Origin: Malania oleifera
Lineage: Eukaryota; Streptophyta; Magnoliopsida; Santalales; Ximeniaceae
Length of the DNA: 64,000 nucleotides
Reading direction: 5' to 3'
NCBI RefSeq assembly: GCF_029873635.1
Contig: NC_080422.1
Location: 5,312,001-5,376,000, forward strand
The notes beneath the pieces were generated by a model that ran no database searches, was not told where the DNA came from, and saw only the letters and a program-made list of their open reading frames with translations. The position numbers were made by a program, and so were the translations under genes. Shown here piece by piece: positions 14,152 to 64,000 of the stretch. How positions within the stretch are numbered: the first letter of the stretch is position 1; each line of letters opens with the position of its first letter.

Positions 14152-17100
14152 AGATTGCCAGTTGGAACATCAGGGGTCTGAACAAACCCCTGAAGCAAAA
14201 TGGGGTTGCTAACCTCATTAGGAAAAACAATTTGGATTTGGTTGGTTTACTGGAGACTAAACTATCAACAGAAAACATGGAAGAACTGATGAGGAAGAAG
14301 TTTAAAAACTGGAAGTAGGTTAACAATTTTGAGTATCACCAGGGGGGCAGAATATTGGTGGTTTGGAACCCTCTCAAAGTCTTGTTGCAGGTCATTGGAA
14401 TGAATGCCCAGGTGCTGCATTGTTCTATTGTGTGTTTGATTTCTGCTAACTGTTTTAATGTGAGGTTTGTATATGGCTTCAATTCTATCCAGGCTAGAAA
14501 ACCACTGTGGCAGGACATTGTACAGACTGAGGGGAGTTATCCAAGACCTTGGCTTCTCTTGGGGAACTTTAAATGTGTAATGTCCCTCTGATGAGAAGGA
14601 GAATGGCCTGCCAGTTTCTATATATGAAACAAAAAACGCAAATGCTTTTTAACCGCAGGGCTCACTGATCTGAATTCCTCAGGTTGTTGTTCAACCTGGA
14701 TGAATGGAAGAGTGTGGTGTAAACTTGATCGAGCGGTTGTCAATCAAAGATGGCATCAGAATGGGTTAATGCTCACACTGACTTCCAGTTTCCTGATAGT
14801 GTATCTGACCATTCTGTCTGCATTGTATCACTGTTTATGGTGGAACCTTTGGGAAGGAAGCCTTTTAAGTTCTTTAATATGTGGAGTACCCATTATAGAT
14901 TTCAGGAAGTAATTAAGGAGGGTTGGGATGTGCAGATATGGGGCTGTGCTCTGTTCAGATTTGTGAAGAAACTGAAATTATTAAAGAGGCCATTAAAGAC
15001 TATGAATGCTACTCACTTCTCGCATATATCCTCCAGAGCTGAGAGAGCTGAATCTGATTTGTTGGAGTTACAGAAGAAATTTCATGACTCTCCATCAGAT
15101 AATGATCTTCAAATGGAGCTAAAGGAGAAGAAACTGGAAACTCTTAGGCTTGTTGAGGCGAATCAAATGTTTTGCTCTCAGTTGGCAAAGTTTAAATTCC
15201 TAAGGGAGAGTGATAGAGGTACTTCCTACTTCCATGGTTTACTGAGAAGGAACTTATGCAGGAACCATATTTCATCTGTTACTAAAGGCTATGGGGAACA
15301 GACAAATTCCATATCACAGGTAGTTGATGAATTCTTGGAATTTTATACTCAGCTTCTGGGAACTGATTCTATGAGGTCTGATATTAAAGATGATGTCATT
15401 ACTTGTGATGCCATACTGAAGGACACCCATAAGCAGACTATGATATCTCCCATATCTGATGAAGAGGTGAAGAGGGCTCTTTTTGATATTGGAGATGATA
15501 AATCACCAGGGCCGGATGGTTATACTGCACGTTTCCTTAAGAAGTCATGGAATATTGTTAGCAAAGATTTCATTAATGCAATGAAGGAATTTTTTGCTAC
15601 TGGCAAATTACTGAAACAACTAAACCTCACAGCGATTGCATTAATCCCAAAATCCAGCCATGCATCATCTGTGGGGGACTATAGATCCATATCCTGCTGT
15701 AATGTTATGTATAAAGTAATTGCCATGATTATTGCTTCGAGAATCAAGCCTGGCCTTAATGAGATTATCAGCCCAGCTCAATCAGCATTTGTGGAGAATA
15801 GAAGTATGGTTGAAAATATATATTTGGTACAAGAGTTAGTGAGGAAATATGCAAGAAAGTGGATATCCCCGAGATGTATGTTGAAGGTTGACCTAAAAAA
15901 AGCTTATGATTCTATTTCTTGGAGCTTTTTGAGACAAATGCTGGTAAAGTTAAATTTTCCAGTTTTAATGATTAATTGGATCATGGAATATGTCACCACG
16001 ACCTCATTTTCCATTTCATTAAATGGAAGGTTTCATGGGTTCTTTAAAGGTAGAAAGGGTTTGCGACAAGGTGATCCTCTCTCTCCAATGCTGTTTGTGA
16101 TTTGCCTAGAATACTTATCAAGGTTGTTAAGGAGGCTGGAGGCTAACTCAGATTTTAAGTTTCACCCTAAATGTGAAGCCCTCAAAATTACCCACTTGGT
16201 CTTTGCTGATGATCTTATCCTTTTCTCATGAGGGGATTGTAAATTAGTGGGCTTTAAAGGAATTCTTGAATTGCTCTGGACTGGCTGCTAATTGCCTCAA
16301 GTCAAATCTATACCATGCTGGAGTAAAGGAGTTGGAGCTGGAAGGAATATTGCAGATCACAGGGTTCAGAGTTGGGGACTTTCCATTTCGATATCTGGGA
16401 ATACCGTTAGCTGCCTCCAGATTGAATTCTAGCCACTACTCCCCTCTGATCAATAGAATTGCAAATCTGTTTAAGAGTTGGCCTGGGCATACATTATCTT
16501 ATGCAGGTAAGCTGTAGATCATTAATTCCATTATCTAGGGTATTGAATGTTTTTGGCTGGCGATATTCCCCATACCTAATAATGTCGTGGAGCACATAGT
16601 TAAGATATGTAGAGCATTCCTTTGGGGTGGTTGAAGAAAACCATTAGTGGCTTGGAAGGAGGTATGCTTACCAAAAGAGGAAGGTGGCCTAGGGGTCCTT
16701 GGCTTGATCTAAAAGCTTGGAACATGACACTTCTTACTAAAGCTATGTGGAATGTTCAAGCTAAAAAAGATTCCCTTTGGTCGAGATGGATCCACCATGT
16801 GTATTTGAGAGGTGCTAACTTGTGGGACTCTTCTTCTAAACATGATGACTCCCCACTATTTAAGAAAATGATAGTTATAAAGGATCAGATCTTGATGAAA
16901 TGGGGTAACCAGGTTGGTATGGCAGAAAGGATGATAGAAGGATGGGAATTGGAATGCAAAGGCTTGGCACAATGTTACAATTTCTGGAGAACTAAAGCTG
17001 ATAGGGTGTCGTGGTATAATGTGGTGTGGAAAGCTAGAAGTACCACTAAACACGCTTTCACTTTGTGGCTTGTATTAAAGGAAAGCTTCCCACTTGTGAC

Positions 17101-25875: not shown

Positions 25876-26810
25876 ATGAAGCCTAAGGATAATAACTTGG
25901 AAAGTGGCTTCGAGGAGACGGCGAGCGATGAGTCTCCTTCTGTGTCTCGTGGTTTGGTGAGGCAGGTTATCCGAGAGATCGGGCGGAGTGTTAGGAGACG
26001 CGAATGCTCTCCTACTGATACAGGGTGTACCATCGAGAGGTTCACATGCATGCACCCTCCGACATTTACAGGAGAACCCGATCCGATTGTGGCGAAGGAT
26101 TGGGTCAAGAAGACTGAGAGGATTTTGGAAGTCCTCCACTGCACTGAGAGGCAGAAGGTTTTGTACGCTACCTTCCAACTGACTAGGGAGGTAGGGCGTT
26201 GGTGGATTGTAGTGAGTTTGCTTGAGAAGCAGAGAGCTGGTCCATTTGGTATGACGTGGGGCCGCTTCAAGGTGGTATTTTTTGAGAGATACTTTTCGGT
26301 CTCCACTCGGGATGTGAAGGCCGATGAGTTCTCGGGCCTGACGCAGGGAACTCTGACGCTACAAAGGTATGCCGCGAGATTTATCGAGTTATCTCGGTTT
26401 GCGCTGTACTTGGTCCCGAATGAGTACAAGAAGGCTCGGAGGTTTTAGAGGGGTCTGAGGAAAGACATCCGCCGTCTTATGGGGATGCTGTAGATCTGTG
26501 AGTTCTCTGTTTTGGTGGATAAAGCCACCATAGTTGAGACCGACCTTTGGGGAGATGAGGTGGTGCAGGATCAGGGGAAGAGGCCGGTATCTTCTGGTTC
26601 TCAGATTGGTCCTCGACAGGGACAGTGGAAGAAGAAAATAAATTACAGTTCAGGTTATTGGCAGAACACCGAGCGGCAGAGTTATCAGGGGGATCCATCC
26701 TCCGCACCGTGCGCCAAGTGCCGTAAATGGCACGATGGCGAATGTCAGCCGTTCTAGGGTAACTGCTACAACTGTGGCAAGCTGGGCCACATGTCACGGA
26801 GCTGTTAGGC
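25876..26810 (+). pseudogene. Tekay-like gag (capsid and nucleocapsid), with stops
   Basis: The ATG at 25,876 opens a 190-codon frame with the capsid-type stretches 'HPPTFTGEPDPIVAKDWVKK' and 'YFSVSTRDVKADEF'. An in-frame TAG at 26,446 and another near 26,490 interrupt it. Downstream come C-x2-C-x3-H-x3-C (CAKCRKWHDGEC, about 26,708-26,745) and a CCHC knuckle (CYNCGKLGHMSRSC, about 26,764-26,805), which bind RNA in the virus-like particle. The order capsid then two knuckles is typical of Tekay. The stops show that it is no longer functional. Confidence 0.85.
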
Positions 26811-52831: not shown

Positions 52832-55675
52832 TGTGATACCCCAATTTTTGTACAATTTTTTTTATAAATAATAATAAATATTCACTCGTCATCAACAATG
52901 TTCTCTAATCGGCCACATCAACAACCCTTTTACCACTCATATGACCTGACCTGCGTTGGGTACCGGGTAAAAAATCATTTCAATTATACAACCTAACAGC
53001 GCAAGATAGTATATACTTAACAATCAGAATACAATACCCAGAGTATCAACATACATATATGTACATTACCATCACATACCCAAAAACAACACAACCCTAG
53101 GAGAATTACACCCCCCTAGTCTAAGAACTCACCCCGTGTGTCAGGATCTCAGCTCCCTATGGTCTCGGTGCTCTATCACCTGGCTTATCTCTATTCCCTA
53201 AAAGATTTAGATAATTTGTGTGAGACACATCTCAGTAAGAAGGAATAAATTATTTACAGTGTGTGGCAATATGAGTTCAGTTATAACACACTTTACTCCA
53301 AATCATCATTACATTTAAGAAAAATACACTGATAAACATATTCTCATAATCATATAGATATAGAACACAAGCTTTTATAAGTTTTAAAACCCTTTCTTAA
53401 GTTTAATCATTTCCAACAAAAATTTACCCGTGAAGTTCTTGAGAATAAGGAAGATTATCCGCTCATACAGGTAGCTTCCCTTTGCCCTAACATGTTATGC
53501 AGCCAGGTATGACCACATCTGGTACCTATCAAGACACTCACCTTACTCAGTAAGCTCTCAGGCGGAGAGTTTCACTTCGCCTCAATTATTTATATTATTA
53601 ACTCATACGGATCCATTTCTCAATTTTATCATTCTCTATTTCTCATTTTCCATTATATCTTTCATTTCTCATTTTAGCCCACTTTATCATTCTTTCACTC
53701 TCCATTTCCATTTCACTATCCAGCTCATGAGTATCCTTGGTACCTAGTACCAACATCGTGTGTGTAACTCATGGCTACTCGGCGGATCTTTCTTTCCACG
53801 CCATGCTTCCCCCCATGGTCAAGGTTGTGCGGCCCGAAGGTTAGATCTAACTGCGGTTGGCCAACCCGATTAGATCAAAATATCATATCACATATCTCGC
53901 ATTTGTAGTATGACTGGCCGACCTATAACCCTGATCTAGACTTAGGGGGCACAACAACTCTACTAAACATCTCAATCAATTGTCACGCCACTAGCTCCAC
54001 GAGTTCGTGTGGTTGCACTAGCACCACTAGCAACGGTACCGTGCTCAATATCACAACCCATCATTAGGGTTTCCATATCCGTCCATTAGGGTTAATCATT
54101 GTCACATACACGCAATCATTATGCGGTATTGACATTTCATTAATCACATTTCAATGATCCCATTGCAACTTTCACACTTTGCAATGCTCACGTTTCCCCT
54201 GTATTCACAATCAGTAGTCTCATTTCAATCATCGCATTTCAATTTCCATATTGCATTTCATATTTCTCATATTCACATTCCAGTATTCACGTTTTCATTT
54301 TCACGTTTCAATAATTTCATATCAATATACACAATTAATCTCATATCAGTATATCTCAATTCATCTCAATAAAAATGTTCTCATCATTTTCTGTGCACAT
54401 TTCATCTCCTCATTATAGTATATATCATGTTTCACGTATTTCAGCATTTCTCAAAATACCCATATCAGTAATTCATACATTCTCATTTTTATAGAAATCA
54501 TTTCTATTCACATATAAATACCATATTTCATTATTTTCCACCAACATATCAATAATTCTCATTCCATTATTTTCTCAGAAATTACTCATCACTATATTTC
54601 ACATTTTTCATTATGCGTCATATGCCACACAATTTTTACCTAATATTCATAATATATTAATTTCACAAGGAAAATACCGTAACTTTATTTTCCAAATATT
54701 CATTCAATCAATAGTATAAAAATACTGTTATGATTTATTTCCCTTGGCTTACTGAGAGTCTCGTTAAAACTCAGATCCTACACCGTTGGCGCCCGAAACT
54801 CAAATCATGCAATTCGCGTTTTCCCCAGATTAATTAACTCATTTCCCAAAATAATACCCATATAACTTTCCCTAGGCTCCATATACCTCAATTTAACATT
54901 TACACTAATATTTAACATCCTCACTTGGTTTTCTGAACTATGCCTATGGGGCCCCGAAATTACACCCGTGGCACTCACCCGGGCCCTGAATTCCAAAATC
55001 CCTATTTCAACCTCAAAATGCCCAATATTCTAGCATTTCTAAATTAACACTAATTAAATAATAATAAGCCCCTTAATAACCCCCTTATCCCAAATTTGGG
55101 GTTATGCTTACGACAATCTCATGAGAAATCCGCTCTGCTAGACTTGTAAAGAATTATCCCTAAATTCTTATGGTGGTGTCCGATCGTCAATTGGGCTTAA
55201 AATTCACAATAAATTGAAGTAAAAGTGGAAATTTAGCTTACCCCAAAAGATATGCCTACGCCGCTCCTATAACTAATCTGCTTCGATAGAAATGACAGCA
55301 GCGGAGAATGGAGTCCAACGGTATTTCCTGATTTTCGATCGAGCGAGTATCCATTGAGGAAATGAGGAGAGAGGGAGAGAGAGCGAGGAGAGAGACGAGA
55401 GACCAGGGGAGGGGCTCTGCGTAGCTCCTCTCTACATCTAAGCCTAAAGCTTCTTTTGAAGCTTCAGGAAGTGTTAATATATAAAATTATAAAATAATAA
55501 TATTAAAAATAATATAATAATTAATTAATAATATTAATTTATTTAATTAATAAAAATAAAAATAAAAATTAATTTATTTTTTATTTTATTTTATTTATTT
55601 TTATTTTTTATTTTTTTAAATTTTTTTTTTGAAATCACTCCCCTATCTTATGTAACCATTTTTAGGGTTATTACA
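52832..55675 (-). mobile_element. Gypsy LTR (3' LTR) in reverse, related to the adjacent LTR
   Basis: Bounded by TGTGATACCCC and GGTTATTACA, 2,844 bp, with a polypurine tract on its right side (minus strand AAGGCGAGGAGAA, 55,676-55,688). Long parts are inverted relatives of 50,320-52,831: the block around 53,220-53,275 mirrors 52,561-52,615, and 53,750-54,130 mirrors 51,690-52,090. It has the same degenerate short-repeat region (54,130-54,450) but no GTCGAC palindrome cluster. Confidence 0.85.
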
Positions 55676-56492
55676 TTCTCCTCGCCTTATAAAAATTTCG
55701 TCCTTGAAATTTGCTACTCGTTACCTTTTCATCCTTAAAGGAAAACACCCCAATTTTATTAATTATCCTCACTTATGGCGGAGGAACACCATGGTTACAA
55801 AGAGGGTTCTGGGAGATTACAACTATTCAAAATTCTCCTAAAGTCATTCACGTTACAAAACTAAAAACTTTATCTATCATACGTTACACTATACAAATCA
55901 AAAAACACAGTATTTTTCACTTTATTCTGACTAGCTCAACACTAAACTCCACTAAATAAGTGTGGGTATCTCGAACGCATCTGCTCCTCCAATTCCTAGG
56001 AAACCTCATCAATGACATGGTTGAGCCATAAAACTTTCACCAGTGGAATTTTCTTCGTGCGTAGCTTCTGTTCCTTCTAGTCTAAAATCTGCACTGGAAC
56101 TTCCTCATAAGTCAAGGTATCACCCAACTCCAGTGCTTCATAATTGATCACATGAGAGGGGTCTGAGACGTATTTTCTCAGCATAGAAATGTGAAATACG
56201 TCATGGATCCTAGATAGGACTGGTGGTAATGCCAATTAATAGGCAACTAGACCCACTCTTTCAAGAAACTCGAATGGCCCAATATACCTAGGGCCCAGCT
56301 TACCTTTCCTCTCAAATCTCATAACCCCTTTCAGCAGTGCCACCTTCAGGAACACGTGATCTCCTGCGTCAAACTCCAATTCTCGCTGATGAGTATCTGC
56401 ATAACTCTTCTGTCGGCTCTGTGTTGTTCTGATCCTGTCTCTGATGAGTTTAACTTTATCCTGAGTCTGCTGTATCAGCTCTAGCCCCAATA
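55676..56492 (-). pseudogene. Tekay-like integrase C-terminus and chromodomain remnant
   Basis: From 56,490 leftwards: 'IRTTQSRQKSYADTHQREL', 'GDHVFLKVALLKGVMRF', 'KLGPRYIGPFEFLERVG', then 'SRIHDVFHVSMLRKYV' and a chromodomain-like 'LRTKKIPLVKVLW ... PHLF' (about 56,110-55,985) with two in-frame stops. The AAATTTCAAGGACGAAATTT stem and a purine tract lead into the LTR at 55,675. RT and upstream parts would lie to the right, beyond the LTR inserted at 56,493. Confidence 0.85.
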
Positions 56493-56933
56493 TGTAACGA
56501 CCCGAAAAATATTGATATTTAAATATTAAAATGGAAACAGAAATGAAAGGAGGTAATAAGCGTTCGTCGATGACATTGCATTTTGGATGGAATAACTCGA
56601 AAGTATTACACAGGGCCTCGTCGGCGAAACAGGGAGTTCATCAACGAGAAAATACCGAGAGGGGTTTTTGGGATGGCCTGAAATTCATCGACGAGGGAGG
56701 AAGTTTTTCGATGAAATTATTGAAGGACTCGTCGATGAATCCAGCCCTATAAATAGCTGAAACCCAGATTTTTATGAAATTTCAGCTCAGGAAATTCCTT
56801 TCTCTCTCTCTACGTCCCTCCCTCCTTCTCTCTTTGATTCCGGGCCTGTTTCTCACCGGATCGAAGATTTGAGGCTACCACGAGCTTAGGAGTGTATGCA
56901 GTTTGGCCGGGCTGGAGTAGTGTAGAGTATATT
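56493..56933 (+). mobile_element. Start of another gypsy LTR (family A), split by the homeobox element
   Basis: TGTAACGACCCG start, CGTCGATGA-type motifs (56,562-56,740), TATA box TATAAATA at 56,749-56,756 and a CT-rich leader. It stops at 56,933 where the next LTR inserts; the remainder is outside the window. Confidence 0.8.
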
Positions 56934-56945
56934 TGTGATGACCCA

Positions 56946-56976
<31 letters not shown>

Positions 56977-59476
56977 TGATTAAAGTACAATAATAATAAA
57001 ATAATAAAAATGGTCATTTAGTTAATATCAATATATAAGTATTTTTCTGTAGGATCCTTGATTCCATATTTGATGCCTAAGAAAGACCTTGTCTTAGCGA
57101 GTGCTCAGAGACCATTGCGGCTCAGTCGCTCCCTGGAGGTCGGCCTGGTCAAAATGGAATTTCATAGGATAAACAGGATAGACACTATTTGTACACGTAA
57201 ATAAGTATATATACATAAAATAGTGTTTTGACAGACATAATTTGTCGAAATACATAATAAGATAATAATAATATAGGTATCATATGTGGGGCCCACAATA
57301 CTATGTGGGGTCCACATGAGTCCCGGAGCCACAAGACACTGTTTATATACGTAAATAAGTACATAAAATAATGTTTTAACTGATATAATTTGTAGAGATA
57401 TATGATAAAATAATAATAATATAGGTATCCTATGCGGGGCCCACAAGATTGTGTGGGGCCCACATAAGTCCCGAAGCCGTATGGAGGTTTTCACAAGTCT
57501 CAAAGCTATGTAGGATGCATAAAATCGTATAAGAGTTATTCGAGTTACGTAGGATCCATTCGGGTCTCGAAGTTGTGTGGGGCCCACAAGACCATGTGGG
57601 GCCCACATGAGTTTTTAAAATTTAAATTTAATTCTTGTTCAAAATAAATAATAAAATAAATAAATACTTAAAATAGTTTATAAGTAATAACAATGATAAT
57701 AATAATGACAATAATGATTAAGAAAAATAATAAAATAATAAAATAATTAATTAACTAATTGATTAATTAATTAGGTAAGTAGTTAATTAAAAATTTATTT
57801 AGTGGGAATGGTGGCAAGCACTCCCACATGGCCTCCATCCCCATCCCATACTCAACCCATACCTTGCCCATCCCTTGCCCATTCTTTAATTTTAAAAAAA
57901 AAATAATTTCACCCATCTCCCCACATTTTTATAAATTCTATTTCTTCCCCAAAATTTTCCTATAAATAGGGAGCTCTCAACCTTCATTTTTCACAACAAT
58001 TTTCCAAGGAAGAGAAGGATTAGTGAGTGAAAGAATTTGTGGTGGAGAGAGAATTTTTGAATAAATTCTCAATCACCCACTTTTTCCGATCTCATTTCTT
58101 AAAGATAACTATTGTGTTCGTAGCACACGGTAAAAGAAGAAGGTAAGTAAATTTTGATTATGTTAGTTTCTTTTTATTTTAAATTCATACCCGAGCTTAT
58201 TTTGTACGAAAATTTTAATTATGTTACTTAGTTCCACAAAATTTCCATGAGTTTATTTTTACGCATATTTAATTATACCAGTTCTATCTTTAATATACTT
58301 GCATCTATTTTTGGGTTAAGAAATGTTCCAATCCCCTCGGGTAAATTTTCAGCATTTCTTTCTATTCAAAAATAAAATTATATATATTTTTAACACAAAA
58401 ATTGTGTGGCATGAGTTTATTTCTACGTTACATTTTTTTTTATGTAAATATGAGTAAAGATGAGATTTTCACGATATTATTTTAAATTGCATAAATTATA
58501 ATAAGATGATTTTCAAACCCCTTATGGCAACGAAAGTTCAAAGTTACAGATGCTCGGTACCGCAGCTTAAAGTTTATACGGATCAGAGTGCACCCACACT
58601 GTTTACAGAGTGGTTATTTATGTTAGTGGATTTCTCCTGAGTGCACACCTGGTTTAAGTCCAGGACTTAATAAGGAAAATCTCACTTAAAGTTTACGTAC
58701 GTTGATTTAGTTTGGTCGGCCAGCCAGCTAAGTCCAGTCTTCGGACCGCACAACCCAGTCATGGGGGTAAACATGACTTACGGCAAACAGGCCTAAGGGT
58801 GGGTTTTTATAATATATGTTTATACACATTTAATTACGTGTACAAAGTTACTGATGATTTGAAGGAAAAGTGTAAGTTTACGTGAAAAGGATCATTTTGG
58901 TACTTAAATGACGATCTAAGGAACACGTATAAGGAAAAGTATATGTTTATCATTAAATATTTTTACAGTTTTAAAGTTAAAAGTTTAATTTAGCAGTTAT
59001 AGTATATGATTGTAAAAATTTACTGTTGAAATTGATGACAAAAGTTTTATGCAGAAATCTTTAAAGTTATGTTTATTCTAAAAGCAGTCTTGAAATTATA
59101 GTATTAAATATTATTTTACGAAATTCTTTAAAAGCTCATTTTGACCACACACTAATAATAATCTTATTTACTTACTGAGCGTCGTCTCACCCCAATCATA
59201 TTTTATTTCAGATAACTCTGAAGGACATGTCGGAAATCAGGCTTAGCAAGCAGGCTTAGCAAGCATGCGGGTGGGGATTAGAAAAAAATAAAGATTAATT
59301 AGAAATATAGTATGATTTCAGATATTTACGTTTGTGTAATTTTCTTCTTTTGAAATAAATGATTGTAACATGAATAATTAGCGCTCTGGTTTAATAAGAA
59401 TCGAGTTTATTTGCTTCCGCTGTAAATCAGTAGTAAAAAGTTAATATCCCAGGCCCCTCGGGGTCGGGGTGTTACA
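56934..59476 (+). repeat. 5' LTR of the homeobox-carrying element
   Basis: TGTGATGACCC ... GGTGTTACA, 2,543 bp. U3 has two tandem ~150-bp units (57,180-57,333 and 57,334-57,482) and six GTGGGGCCCAC-type sites. TATAAATA is at 57,961-57,968. The conserved ACTGAGCGTCGTCTCACCCC block is at 59,174-59,193, followed by TTTCAG. The open frames found in this LTR are repeated identically in the 3' LTR and look non-coding. Confidence 0.9.
57286..57606 (+). promoter_or_regulatory. Six GTGGGGCCCAC-type sites (TCP-site-like) in U3
   Basis: Sites at 57,286-57,296, 57,305-57,315 (GTGGGGTCCAC), 57,434-57,444 (GCGGGGCCCAC), 57,453-57,463, 57,577-57,587 and 57,596-57,606. Five contain GGGCCCAC, which fits the GGNCCCAC consensus of class I TCP transcription factors, known regulators of growth. 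That TCP proteins bind here is inference. Confidence 0.5.
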
Positions 59477-59478
59477 TT

Positions 59479-59490
59479 TGGTATCAGAGA
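59479..59490 (+). promoter_or_regulatory. Primer binding site
   Basis: TGGTATCAGAGA, one base off the initiator Met-tRNA site, two bases after the 5' LTR. Confidence 0.9.
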
Positions 59491-60563
59491 ATAGGTTATA
59501 GATTCTGTAGACTTTAAGAAATAATTTACCAGAGCATAGGATATAAGTTCTACATACTCTAATATATAAATTTTACTAAAGCTTAGATATAAAACATTAT
59601 TTGGGTAGGATTGGGTAGTTTAAAATATTTATTTTAGTTTGTTATATTATTATACGTTAATAATAGATTTATGATTTTAAAATAACATTTGATCATTATT
59701 TAAGAATAGATCCTAAAGATAGTAGCATTGGAGGAAATGAGATTTACGTGAAGGCTCCCAAGGACAGGTAATAATTATAAATTCTCTAAGAAAAATAGTA
59801 GTATTATTGAAGACACGTTAATTAATTTAAATATATTATTTATGTTTGTAGAAACATGTACCCATATTAATGATTTATAATTAATTGTCAAATGCATTAA
59901 TAATTTAAATTTTTATATATATAAATATAATAATAATATGTGAGATTTAATTATTTTCACTGTTGTTTTTTTCACTAAATATATAAGAAATAACCCATTA
60001 GACCCTACTGAATTTAGAAGTGCTACACATACAAATAGATATGAACAAACGGTCTATTATGAAATCTGAATTTACCCAAAATTTCTTTGCATGTATAAGT
60101 TGGATATGAATATGTATTTTTTTTTTACATCACATATTTAGTTATCAACAGAACATTCAAACTTAATTTAGGAAAATATATTTTGGCAAAATATTTAATT
60201 TTAATTTTGTATTAATTTATAATGAATTAAATATAATTTAAATATTATATATAGTTAAATTCAATATATATATATATAATCCCTTAGCATGTGTAAGTTA
60301 AATATATCTATTTTTTTTTTTTCATTACATATTCAATTTCCATCAAGTATCCAAGTTTAATTTAGGAGTACAAATTTTGATGAAACCTTTAATTTTGTAT
60401 AAATTTATAAAAGTTAATACAACTTAAAATTTTCTATATAAAAAAAAAAAATATACATGTATATTTTTTAATGAAAGCAATATAAAAATTTACTAATTTC
60501 TTTCAAATAACTAACCAATGTCAAATCATCAATTGGCAAAACATGCCCAACATATATTTGATC

Positions 60564-60615
<52 letters not shown>

Positions 60616-60660
60616 AATGTTAATGGAATATATATATAAAAGGGGTACTCTTGTAGTTAT
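59491..60660 (+). other. Leader and AT-rich internal region of the homeobox element
   Basis: The leader resembles the gypsy leader at 25,568-25,875 ('CCAGAGCATAGGATATAAG' against 'CCAGAGTATAGGATGTAG'). At 59,706-59,740 a stretch lines up with the gag start at 25,876 (CCTAAAGATAGTAGC against CCTAAGGATAATAAC), but the ATG is ATA. The rest is AT-rich, with a ~195-bp imperfect tandem duplication (about 60,085-60,280 and 60,285-60,460) and an (AAT)n run (60,566-60,613). No ORF. Confidence 0.6.
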
Positions 60661-60836
60661 AAAAAAAAAAAAAAAAAAAGGGGCCTCATGGGTGGAAATC
60701 ATCGGCTATAGCTCACTTACCCCCGAAGCAAGGTCAGGGCATGAGACCACTTGGGCGTAGTGGGGACTCGAACCCGCGATCACATGGATGCACGGCCGGT
60801 TCCTTACCACTAGGCCACCCACCCAAGTGGTGATCT
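60661..60836 (-). mobile_element. tRNA-derived SINE inside the homeobox element
   Basis: On the minus strand: GGGTGGGTGGCCTAGTGGTA head with A box (plus positions 60,807-60,817) and GGGTTCGAGTCCCC B box (plus positions 60,762-60,774), then a ~90-bp body ending in a T run (A run 60,661-60,679 on the plus strand). The T-rich end recalls SINE families that stop in oligo(T). It looks like a tRNA by its boxes only; the acceptor stem does not close, so it is not a tRNA gene. Confidence 0.75.
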
Positions 60837-60921
60837 AAGGATGAAATTAATTATAGTTAAAGCATTAATAAAGATGTAAAAACATAAAAAGAACCAAGAG
60901 TTTGCAAATTTTGCAATACGT

Positions 60922-61203
60922 GTCACTCGCTCAATTTCCGCGACACATGTCGCTATCCCTCGATTTGTGCAAAACGCGTTAATCGATATCTGTGACACGC
61001 GTCACCCCCTCTCGGTTCTCACGACACACATCGTTATCCCTTGATTTGTGCAAAATGCGTTGATTGATATCCATGACACGCGTCGCCCTCTCTTGATTCT
61101 CGTGACACTTATCATTCTCTCTCGATTTGTGCAAAATGCATTGCTCGATATCCGTGACACACATCACTCTCTCTCGATTTCCACAACACGCGGCCATTCC
61201 CTT
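60922..61203 (+). repeat. Tandem array, 3.5 units of 79-81 bp, upstream of TATA box
   Basis: Units start at 60,922, 61,001, 61,082 and (partial) 61,163. Each contains GATTTGTGCAAAA(C/T)GC, an ATCGATATC(C/T)GTGACAC-like stretch, and GTGACACGCGTC-type near-palindromes at the unit joint. The array ends directly at a TATA box. Its place upstream of the homeobox ORF suggests promoter or enhancer repeats. Confidence 0.85.
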
Positions 61204-61210
61204 ATAAAAA
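61203..61210 (+). promoter_or_regulatory. TATA box of the homeobox ORF (putative)
   Basis: TATAAAAA within CCTTATAAAAAGGG, 126 bp upstream of the ATG at 61,329, directly after the tandem array. Spacing fits a leader of roughly 90-100 nt. Confidence 0.65.
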
Positions 61211-61328
61211 GGGTACGCCCTCCTCAAACTCTAAGCATCACAGTTTTCTACCATCTTGAGCAACCACATTTCGGTTTGAAGAGATTAGTTCTTCCCAACT
61301 TTTCTCTTGGTTGTCTCATTACTCAAAA

Positions 61329-62021
61329 ATGTTGCCAAATCACCCAACTCCCGAAGTTGCTGAGAGCAGCACTAGATCGTCGAACCAAAGATGGAGACCC
61401 AGTAGGGCACAGCTGGAGATTCTAGAGGAGGCCTTCCACAGCAGTCAAGGGGAACTCCCTTCAGTGGAGCAGACTATCTTGCTTGTAGCACAACTCCGAC
61501 AGTATGGTCCAATCGAGCCGAAAAATATATGCTTTTGGTTTGAGAACCGTAGGCGTAGGCGGGGATCAGTTGGAGAAGCCACTATCTCAACAACTGCCCC
61601 ATCAATTCTCCATATTACCTCCTCCGCCACTACCGACCCGAGCAGTGCCCCTGCCATTCTTCCAACCCTCTTCCCTATCGAGAATATTCCGCCTGTGAAA
61701 CTTACAACTAATATCTCACCAATGAGCCATATCCCTTACAATGGCAATATCACAGTCACCACACTAAGGGTTTCGGATAATGCTGGCCTACTTCGACACT
61801 TCAAGGAAATCCGATTCGCAATGAGACTTATATACGGGCCACCAATAACTCGGGAAGAGAGCAGCTCTTCCTCCTTCGCCGAACAAATGGGCGTCCTCTC
61901 CCTTTTTCCGACCCAAGCCGGCGACATTATAAGAGGTCAATTCTACCAAGAAAGAACCCAGGCGGTTAGCAGTGACACCACTAGTACTGCGATAGATGTT
62001 GACGTTGATCTAAGGCTCTAA
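61329..62021 (+). CDS. WUSCHEL-related homeobox (WOX)-like protein carried by an LTR element
   Basis: This is an uninterrupted 230-residue ORF with no introns. The start is ATG 61,329; an in-frame TTG at 61,311 is not a likely start. A homeodomain of WOX type spans residues ~19-80: 'QRWRPSRAQLEILEEAF' (helix 1), 'QLRQYGPIEPKNICFWFENR' leading into the recognition helix, and a basic run RRRRR. WOX proteins normally have WFQN; here Gln50 of the homeodomain is Glu (residue 72) while Asn51 is kept. A Ser/Thr/Pro-rich linker follows. VLSLFPTQ (189-196) resembles the WUS box (T-L-x-L-F-P), and the C-terminus ends DVDLRL, an EAR-like repressor motif. WOX factors act in the nucleus to keep stem cells and shape organs. 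Position between PBS and polypurine tract, in sense, means that it moves with the element. Whether it is expressed is unknown. Confidence 0.85.
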   Translation: MLPNHPTPEVAESSTRSSNQRWRPSRAQLEILEEAFHSSQGELPSVEQTILLVAQLRQYGPIEPKNICFWFENRRRRRGSVGEATISTTAPSILHITSSATTDPSSAPAILPTLFPIENIPPVKLTTNISPMSHIPYNGNITVTTLRVSDNAGLLRHFKEIRFAMRLIYGPPITREESSSSSFAEQMGVLSLFPTQAGDIIRGQFYQERTQAVSSDTTSTAIDVDVDLRL

Positions 62022-62290
62022 AGGCCAGATCTCGTATATTATTATTATTTTTTTATTTATTTATAGGACATGTATGATATATATACATATATATAATTAT
62101 CTTTTTCCACATCTTCTGAATTTCTTTTCCATTTCAACCTCTATTAGACCAACGATTCACATTTCAATTCCCAAAATAAAATACTTCATTAAATTGACCC
62201 TCAATCTATTCTAAGATTTAGTTAAATCGTTAATCAATTTACTCTTTCTAATAGTGTAACCCAATTATACAGTACTCATTTTAAATTAGC
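62022..62290 (+). other. 3' region between homeobox ORF and polypurine tract
   Basis: AT-rich, no ORF. It may include the 3' UTR of the homeobox transcript (AAAATAAAATAC near 62,173 could act in polyadenylation). Confidence 0.4.
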
Positions 62291-62327
62291 AAATTTCGAG
62301 GACGAAATTTTTATAAGGAGGGAAGAT
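62291..62327 (+). promoter_or_regulatory. Stem-loop and polypurine tract of the homeobox element
   Basis: AAATTTCGAGGACGAAATTT (62,291-62,310), identical to 2,977-2,996, then AAGGAGGGAAGA directly before the 3' LTR. This proves that the internal region and 3' LTR are one element of plus orientation. Confidence 0.9.
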
Positions 62328-62340
62328 TGTGATGACCAAA

Positions 62341-62379
<39 letters not shown>

Positions 62380-64000
62380 TAAAGTACAATAATAATAAAA
62401 TAATAAAAATGGTCATTTAGTTAATATCAATATATAAGTATTTTTCTGTAGGATCCTTGATTCCATATTTGATGCCTAAGAAAGACCTTGTCTTAGCGAG
62501 TGCTCAGAGACCATTGCGGCTCAGTCGCTCCCTGGAGGTCGGCCTGGTCAAAATGGAATTTCATAGGATAAACAGGATAGACACTATTTGTACACGTAAA
62601 TAAGTATATATACATAAAATAGTGTTTTGACAGACATAATTTGTCGAAATACATAATAAGATAATAATAATATAGGTATCATATGTGGGGCCCACAATAC
62701 TATGTGGGGTCCACATGAGTCCCGGAGCCACAAGACACTGTTTATATACGTAAATAAGTACATAAAATAATGTTTTAACTGATATAATTTGTAGAGATAT
62801 ATGATAAAATAATAATAATATAGGTATCCTATGCGGGGCCCACAAGATTGTGTGGGGCCCACATAAGTCCCGAAGCCGTATGGAGGTTTTCACAAGTCTC
62901 AAAGCTATGTAGGATGCATAAAATCGTATAAGAGTTATTCGAGTTACGTAGGATCCATTCGGGTCTCGAAGTTGTGTGGGGCCCACAAGACCATGTGGGG
63001 CCCACATGAGTTTTTAAAATTTAAATTTAATTCTTGTTCAAAAATAAATAATAAAATAAATAAATACTTAAAATAGTTTATAAGTAATAACAATGATAAT
63101 AATAATGACAATAATGATTAAGAAAAATAATAAAATAATAAAATAATTAATTAACTAATTGATTAATTAATTAGGTAAGTAGTTAATTAAAAATTTATTT
63201 AGTGGGAATGGTGGCAAGCACTCCCACATGGCCTCCATCCCCATCCCATACTCAACCCATACCTTGCCCATCCCTTGCCCATTCTTTAATTTTAAAAAAA
63301 AAATAATTTCACCCATCTCCCCACATTTTTATAAATTCTATTTCTTCCCCAAAATTTTCCTATAAATAGGGAGCTCTCAACCTTCATTTTTCACAACAAT
63401 TTTCCAAGGAAGAGAAGGATTAGTGAGTGAAAGAATTTGTGGTGGAGAGAGAATTTTTGAATAAATTCTCAATCACCCACTTTTTCCGATCTCATTTCTT
63501 AAAGATAACTATTGTGTTCGTAGCACACGGTAAAAGAAGAAGGTAAGTAAATTTTGATTATGTTAGTTTCTTTTTATTTTAAATTCATACCCGAGCTTAT
63601 TTTGTACGAAAATTTTAATTATGTTACTTAGTTCCACAAAATTTCCATGAGTTTATTTTTACGCATATTTAATTATACCAGTTCTATCTTTAATATACTT
63701 GCATCTATTTTTGGGTTAAGAAATGTTCCAATCCCCTCGGGTAAATTTTCAGCATTTCTTTCTATTCAAAAATAAAATTATATATATTTTTAACACAAAA
63801 ATTGTGTGGCATGAGTTTATTTCTACGTTACATTTTTTTTTATGTAAATATGAGTAAAGATGAGATTTTCACGATATTATTTTAAATTGCATAAATTATA
63901 ATAAGATGATTTTCAAACCCCTTATGGCAACGAAAGTTCAAAGTTACAGATGCTCGGTACCGCAGCTTAAAGTTTATACGGATCAGAGTGCACCCACACT
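62328..64000 (+). repeat. 3' LTR of the homeobox-carrying element, cut by window end
   Basis: Aligns with 56,934-58,600 with a simple-repeat length difference of a few bases at its start, one extra A near 63,041, and otherwise line-by-line identity as far as I compared. It carries the same palindromic GTGGGGCCCAC sites and a TATA box at 63,361-63,368. Confidence 0.95.

Follow-up and report, generated by a model that had tools for sequence, protein, structure and literature searches.

A WUSCHEL-like homeobox gene as the sole long ORF of a recently inserted, high-copy LTR retrotransposon in Malania oleifera

The stretch of DNA analysed here, referred to as the window, comprises 64,000 nucleotides of the Malania oleifera genome (C6:5312001-5376000 in an assembly of 1,494,336,490 bases and 510 contigs), and at its right end it holds most of a long terminal repeat (LTR) retrotransposon, whose only long open reading frame (ORF) encodes a protein with a WOX-type homeodomain. 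The features of this element are the following, with positions counted from the first letter of the window:

56929..56933, plus strand: left target-site duplication ATATT, a perfect 5 bp, with its partner at 64877-64881, just past the window end
56934..59476, plus strand: left LTR, 2543 bp, with TG...CA ends
59479..59489, plus strand: primer-binding site TGGTATCAGAG
60680..60829, minus strand (antisense): tRNA-like or SINE-like stretch, seen by eye; neither ARAGORN nor Rfam calls one
60941..61179, plus strand: three tandem 81-bp units, GC-richer, with TGACACGCGTCA-like dyads, directly 5' of the gene
61203..61211, plus strand: TATA box TATAAAAAG, 126 nt upstream of the ATG
61329..62021, plus strand (sense): WOX-like homeobox ORF, intronless, 230 amino acids and stop, the sole long frame between the LTRs
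61380..61568, plus strand: homeodomain, residues 18-80, predicted helices 26-38, 46-59 and 64-77
61893..61916, plus strand: WUS-box-like motif VLSLFPTQ, residues 189-196
61995..62018, plus strand: C-terminal DVDVDLRL, EAR-like
62315..62327, plus strand: polypurine tract AAGGAGGGAAGAT
62328..64000, plus strand: right LTR within the window, complete to 64876 (C6:5376876), 2549 bp

An alignment of the two LTRs has 2542 identities, one mismatch and 6 gap positions; the single mismatch together with the ATATT duplication indicates that the insertion is very recent. The primer-binding site, which we take to be of the initiator tRNA-Met type, follows the left LTR and the polypurine tract precedes the right one, both in plus orientation, as a preliminary description of this DNA, made from the letters alone, had stated. 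The same description had claimed that there is no gag-pol between the LTRs and that the element carries one intact sense ORF of 230 codons with a WOX-type homeodomain, and these statements were borne out as well: frames of at least 45 codons yielded no further long ORF inside the element (small frames were outside the Pfam search). The stop-free run of the ORF, 253 codons, compares with a longest run of 201 in shuffled sequence, and 0 of 2000 dinucleotide shuffles of 61201-62100 reached 230 codons or more. The ORF has a GC content of 0.50, compared to 0.24 in 59477-60900 and 0.26 in the stretch 3' of it, and about 0.3 kb separate the gene from the right LTR.

By its homeodomain sequence, the encoded protein qualifies as a member of the WOX family. 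The domain matches PF00046 (E 1.1e-7), and WUSCHEL (6ry3, E 5.6e-11) and STENOFOLIA (6wig, E 2.7e-10) are its nearest sequence matches among the solved structures of the PDB. When the predicted fold was compared with the PDB, the ten best ranks were all taken by WUS or STENOFOLIA homeodomains; as the homeodomain blocks (pLDDT, the per-residue model confidence, 65-84) are the sole confident part of a model with a mean pLDDT of 41.6, no fold is claimed for the remainder of the protein. Further downstream, VLSLFPTQ aligns with TLPLFPMH, the WUS-box of Malania WUS, and if the WUS-box pattern is, as we assume, TLxLFPxx, the element keeps the LxLFP core and a V replaces the leading T. The protein terminates with DVDVDLRL, which we take to be an EAR-like repression motif, and the WUS-box-like and terminal motifs together favour an assignment to the WUS clade. 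Residues W22, W70, F71, N73, L192 and F193 are invariant in all 84 distinct ORFs that were compared. Position 50 of homeodomains sets DNA specificity, and at this position the element protein has a glutamate (E72), which recurs in 83 of the 84 distinct ORFs, the remaining one having lysine and the excluded broken copy L063 aspartate, whereas glutamine is found in every host WOX examined; this glutamate predicts a changed DNA specificity. Protein searches of 5.8 billion sequences returned one relative only, from Malania, and unannotated copies in other plants are possible.

The genome contains many copies of this element. A search with the protein as query, in which 150 of 1023 candidates were scored, gave 83-100% identity in 150 of 150 cases, nearly all of them full-length; the copies are distributed over every one of the 13 large contigs and a small one. 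The ORF is free of stops in 120 of these copies and has a stop in the other 30, and as the scored copies are the best-scoring ones, the share of intact ones is overstated and 150 is a minimum for the total. In all 30 copies with 1.5-kb flanks (window copy counted), the ORF is followed by the same LTR, which argues against an ordinary WOX locus that merely has LTRs nearby. Perfect 5-bp target duplications that differ between insertions were found in 11 of 14 copies, a non-random sample of best-scoring ones that includes the window copy (10 of the 13 others), namely ATATT, GACCT, CATAT, TTTGC, ATGGT, ACTAC, AGTAT, TGAAA, CACCA, ATACT and ACTAT. In 10 other copies, the divergence of the element's own LTR pair is 0.08-0.60%, measured over the first ~1190 bp. 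The WOX-element family has been mobile in the past, and the spread by retrotransposition that the preliminary description had supposed is thus supported by the number and similarity of the copies and by their duplications. A solitary copy, a right LTR with an unmatched duplication and an ordinary WOX locus had been named there as counter-explanations; what was found are at least 150 copies, ATATT at both ends of the window element, and the same element around each of the 30 flanked ORFs. The further expectation that extra WOX copies are placed around the genome stands as far as dispersed copies are concerned, but less so in the sense of a mere dosage increase of some host WOX protein, against which the glutamate at position 50 argues.

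Several other observations were made on these copies. WOX-element ORFs lie in tandem, 5.4-5.8 kb apart, at C4:124.24 Mb, C6:84.61 Mb, C7:96.28 Mb, C1:68.24 Mb and C1:29.24 Mb, and as this spacing is about that of one LTR plus internal region, it suggests LTR-internal-LTR-internal-LTR arrays that arose by unequal recombination. Copy L010 (C1:123.64 Mb) agrees with the window copy in 99.6% of the ORF (protein) and 98.8% of the internal region, while its left LTR is 4.7% different, and from such mosaic similarity, element lineages appear to recombine. A comparison of subfamilies in noncoding sequence was set aside, as it is confounded by indels and mosaic copies. In the NCBI gene model P0001 (LOC131144967) of Malania, an unrelated N-terminus is joined to a divergent element protein (70% over 159 aligned columns), and this could be a fused or exonised element copy or a mere prediction artefact.

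As the element lacks gag-pol, the enzymes for its mobility would have to come from elsewhere, and a candidate for such a source shares its LTR. With part of the LTR as nucleotide query (3034 candidates, 40 of them scored), an LTR pair, 7.06 kb apart, was detected on C5 that is 99% identical over the query. The C5 relative has the same primer-binding site and leader (95% over 66 nt at the internal start), and the polypurine tract region (internal positions 2788-2842) is 88% alike over 58 nt, but the internal regions of the two elements align at these two ends only. Above the curated cut-offs, the C5 relative has matches to Retrotrans_gag, RVP_2, RVT_1, RT_RNaseH and SH3_Tf2-1 (integrase C-terminal), and just below cut-off to Ty3_capsid and to the zinc-binding Integrase_H2C2 (25.3 vs 25.5 bits). 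It is absent from the 150 scored matches of the WOX protein, and tblastn with the WOX protein gave nothing significant in it (best E 0.94). Going by this one LTR-sharing relative, the family is probably of the Ty3/Gypsy type. Another LTR pair, likewise spaced 7.06 kb apart, lies at C4:121983281-121991327, its LTR being 96% identical to that of the window, and it possibly represents a further gag-pol relative.

With respect to the origin of the carried gene, the homeodomain shows 25-43% identity to 10 host WOX homeodomains and the two PDB proteins, which means that it was not recently copied from any of the host WOX genes examined and that it must have had a long separate history. This history may precede the capture, in the host, or follow it, in the element, and the data fit either. 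A homeodomain phylogeny, which the preliminary description had proposed as a way to the donor, gave a best tree in which the elements group with WUS, STENOFOLIA and WOX5 (support 68/80; Malania WOX1-4 are outside the tree). In Malania WUS, homeodomain and WUS-box are separated by an intron (GCAG|GTAAGT ... TAG|GACTG, recognised in the sequence itself; an additional exon is possible), and the element ORF is devoid of this intron, which fits a passage through RNA. When the genome was searched with the homeodomain of WUS (641 candidates, 150 of them scored, not all rows being assigned by hand), host WOX rows reached 46-113 bits and element rows 43-50 bits at 33-43% identity.

This search also revealed a local WUS duplication cluster, with an intact-looking WUSCHEL at C1:43737669 (L057/L086) and at least seven WUS-like homeodomain copies (C1:44656760, 44660152, 44663546, 44682649 and 44686027; C13:48345872; C435:36145), five of which lie within 30 kb on C1 and three of the seven of which have an in-frame stop. 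C13:71232430, C2:19796061 and C8:83926486 are likely candidate loci of Malania WOX1-4; six other homeodomain loci were rejected as such candidates because they are HD-ZIP-like by eye, and three further homeodomain loci look by eye to be of the DDT/RLT type.

Selection on the ORF was assessed in two sets, 51 ORFs (48 distinct) and then 91 ORFs (84 distinct, 15 with stops), from whose counts L063 and L064 were excluded as frame-broken or incomplete. Among the 51 ORFs, singleton changes comprise 111 nonsynonymous (N), 46 synonymous (S) and 3 nonsense changes, where the neutral expectation from the same spectrum is 0.677/0.278/0.044, and the singleton N/S ratio of 2.41 is practically that expected under neutrality (2.43). 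Changes shared between ORFs are, by comparison, depleted in amino-acid changes, with 95 N / 67 S (p 0.027), and so are those in at least three ORFs, with 53 N / 45 S (p 0.010); by region, the contrast between shared and singleton changes is significant in residues 81-173 (p 0.010). The 91 ORFs have singletons of 130 N, 58 S and 9 nonsense, and variants in at least three ORFs (79 N / 60 S, p 0.027) or in at least five (46 N / 41 S, p 0.010) again show this depletion. Pooled over 382 divergent pairs of 1275 (51 ORFs), pairwise omega (dN/dS) is 0.44, and 0.30 in the homeodomain. The divergent, incomplete copy L064 gave omega values of 0.44-0.58 against six others, at a dS of 0.22-0.31. In our interpretation, moderate purifying selection has acted among the spreading lineages and neutral decay has followed insertion; the signal is modest.

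Of 33 copies whose sequence reaches far enough upstream, 31 have an exact match to the TATA box at -125 to -127, the exceptions being L020 and L066. The 81-bp repeats with their TGACACGCGTCA-like dyads are a possible binding array; two matches lie in the repeats, and as the pattern was picked after viewing the sequence, this count is no test. TAATTA is enriched in the LTR (20 vs 9.2 expected, reached in 0 of 200 shuffles), but this was set aside, since by eye it is mostly due to a low-complexity run. Rfam gave two sub-threshold matches only, both within the LTRs. On the left, the insertion adjoins a remnant of another Ty3-type element (window 55659-56490, minus strand) with an ORF at 56236-56490 that resembles an integrase C-terminus by eye, and the end sequence of this remnant is 84% complementary to the polypurine tract region of the WOX element over 58 nt. 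Elsewhere in the window, ORFs at 14750-16231 and 25876-26448 resemble, by eye, a LINE reverse transcriptase and a retrotransposon gag, respectively.

On this basis, we consider it likely that the window contains a recent insertion of a large, non-autonomous and probably Ty3/Gypsy-type LTR family, the sole gene of which is a WUSCHEL-clade-like WOX gene that is kept as the element's own regulatory gene. Several observations weigh against this reading. With regard to selection, the contrast is not significant in the homeodomain (p 0.28) and in residues 174-230 (p 0.52) of the 51 ORFs, nor in the 91 ORFs for variants in at least two (135 N / 83 S, p 0.14) or at least eight ORFs (34 N / 26 S, p 0.086); the pairs behind the pooled omega are not independent, and among pairs that involve the window copy and differ by more than 15 changes, omega spans 0.34-1.10, several values being near 1. 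Intactness is overestimated, since the scored set consists of the best matches, and among the copies tested for duplications, L011 and L022 have no matching one and the left end of L017 was not found where expected. The gag-pol relative is a single example, in which the right end was located and the left end was not found, the frames are partly broken with the second half spread over several of them, and no match to the integrase core is present. The homeodomain tree does not settle the host donor clade, as groupings of the elements with WUS alone (p-AU 0.20), WOX9/11 (0.22) or WOX13 (0.30) are not rejected. Finally, TTAATGG, TCACGTGA, TGAATGAA and TGAATSA, which we take to be WUS motifs, are not enriched in the LTR or the internal region.

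Which alternatives exist to a WOX gene that is kept for its function in the element? The WOX gene could have been captured once and then copied along as a passive passenger without any benefit, its ORFs being intact merely because the insertions are young. The very young LTR pairs, the neutral singleton changes and a genome search that ranks the best copies first are all in line with this, as are the modest selection p-values that fail at two thresholds and within the homeodomain alone. Neutral copying is less in line with the fact that variants in at least five ORFs have half the N/S ratio of singletons (46/41 vs 130/58), with the omega of 0.44-0.58 for the divergent L064 against six copies, and with a homeodomain core and a WUS-box core that are invariant despite the distance from the host WOX examined, and we therefore regard a mere passenger as unlikely.

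It is quite improbable that the WOX gene is a former accessory gene of an autonomous member with gag-pol and WOX, from which the present family would be a deletion derivative: the sense gene does lie near the right LTR, about 0.3 kb away from it, which according to the relevant part of a review is the typical place of accessory ORFs (PMC7264820), but the single gag-pol relative examined is without WOX, and the two element types share their ends only, with no gag-pol remnant. An ordinary host WOX family that lies between LTRs by chance, or an assembly artefact, can practically be dismissed. A local cluster of WUS duplicates does exist in Malania, but differing 5-bp duplications exactly at the LTR ends (11 of 14) and the flanks refute this explanation, copies lie on all 13 large contigs, host and element rows differ in the WUS-homeodomain search (46-113 vs 43-50 bits), and the glutamate-50 form occurs in no host WOX examined.

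If the WOX gene is indeed kept by the element, the following course of events can be envisaged. Capture from a host, as well as expression and effect of the gene, are what we infer; the capture would have occurred long ago from a WOX gene, perhaps via spliced RNA. Proteins of gag-pol relatives would package the element RNA, reverse-transcribe it and integrate it in trans. The product would be a DNA-binding homeodomain protein, probably of the repressor type, with an altered specificity due to glutamate 50 and with the WUS-box-like and EAR-like motifs mediating repression, and the gene may be kept because the product helps the element itself. As the least certain step, promoters of the element or of the host might be targets of the product in cells of the meristem or the germ line. 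Tentatively, and as a possibility rather than an expectation, we propose that a retrotransposon lineage has domesticated a stem-cell homeobox gene, whose separate glutamate-50 specificity is under element-level selection and which controls element expression or the escape from silencing, plausibly in meristem cells or germ-line precursors.

How does this element compare with known systems? With WUSCHEL/WOX proteins, it shares the WOX-like loop lengths and the core W, F and N residues of the homeodomain, and the WUS-box-like motif is followed by the C-terminal EAR-like motif in the expected order. In contrast to them, its residue 50 of the homeodomain is glutamate instead of glutamine, helix 3 is followed by a run of arginines, the middle region has no known match, and the gene is intronless and borne by a retrotransposon. 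Like maize Bs1 and further plant LTR elements that have transduced genes of their hosts, as far as these are described in the relevant parts of reviews (PMC13317346, PMC7264820), it carries apparently host-derived coding sequence in sense. According to the same partial sources, none of the transduced segments of Bs1 has a full-length ORF (PMC13317346, PMC7264820), and transduced genes in plant elements occur in one or few copies each (PMC7264820, PMC11963269), whereas the Malania element has a complete transcription-factor ORF in at least 150 scored copies, a contrast that is drawn from review descriptions. The capture of intact genes is in itself no novelty, since one of these reviews gives 672 captured genes for rice and 1343 for sorghum, many of the LTR-captured ones in sorghum still being functional (PMC7264820).

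The accessory ORFs of plant elements, as described in part of the same review, mostly sit between pol and the 3' LTR, and the antisense ones with high copy number are without similar host genes (PMC7264820). The accessory ORFs of Grande, RIRE2 and Retand resemble the WOX gene in being extra ORFs near the 3' LTR that are kept in most copies, and differ from it in being antisense, in gag-pol elements and without host relatives (PMC7264820); the region between pol and 3' LTR of Retand is described in excerpts as containing tandem repeats and ORFs for proteins that are often predicted to be DNA-binding (PMC11963269). The available text of a 2026 review of plant transposon gene capture contains neither 'homeo' nor 'wus' (PMC13317346), and no report of an LTR element with a WOX or homeobox gene was found in the titles and abstract beginnings among the matches listed for the open-licence literature. 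Judged from sequence, the new aspect would be that the resident gene of a retrotransposon encodes a complete transcription factor of development.

In functional terms only, the WOX protein may be analogous to the VANC anti-silencing proteins, which are unrelated proteins of a different transposon class. In Arabidopsis, the VANC proteins of VANDAL DNA transposons are, by the parts of the publications considered, transposon-encoded, sequence-specific DNA-binding proteins that serve the element (PMC5735166, PMC10398659). The WOX family sets stem-cell identity, and a complete ORF of this family in at least 150 copies, on every large contig and with signs of selection, makes it a testable question whether a retrotransposon can gain from a developmental regulator, and whether such elements are raw material for new regulators of the genome. 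If the interpretation is correct, an element with a domesticated WOX gene would be a plant counterpart of the retroviruses that carry cellular regulators.

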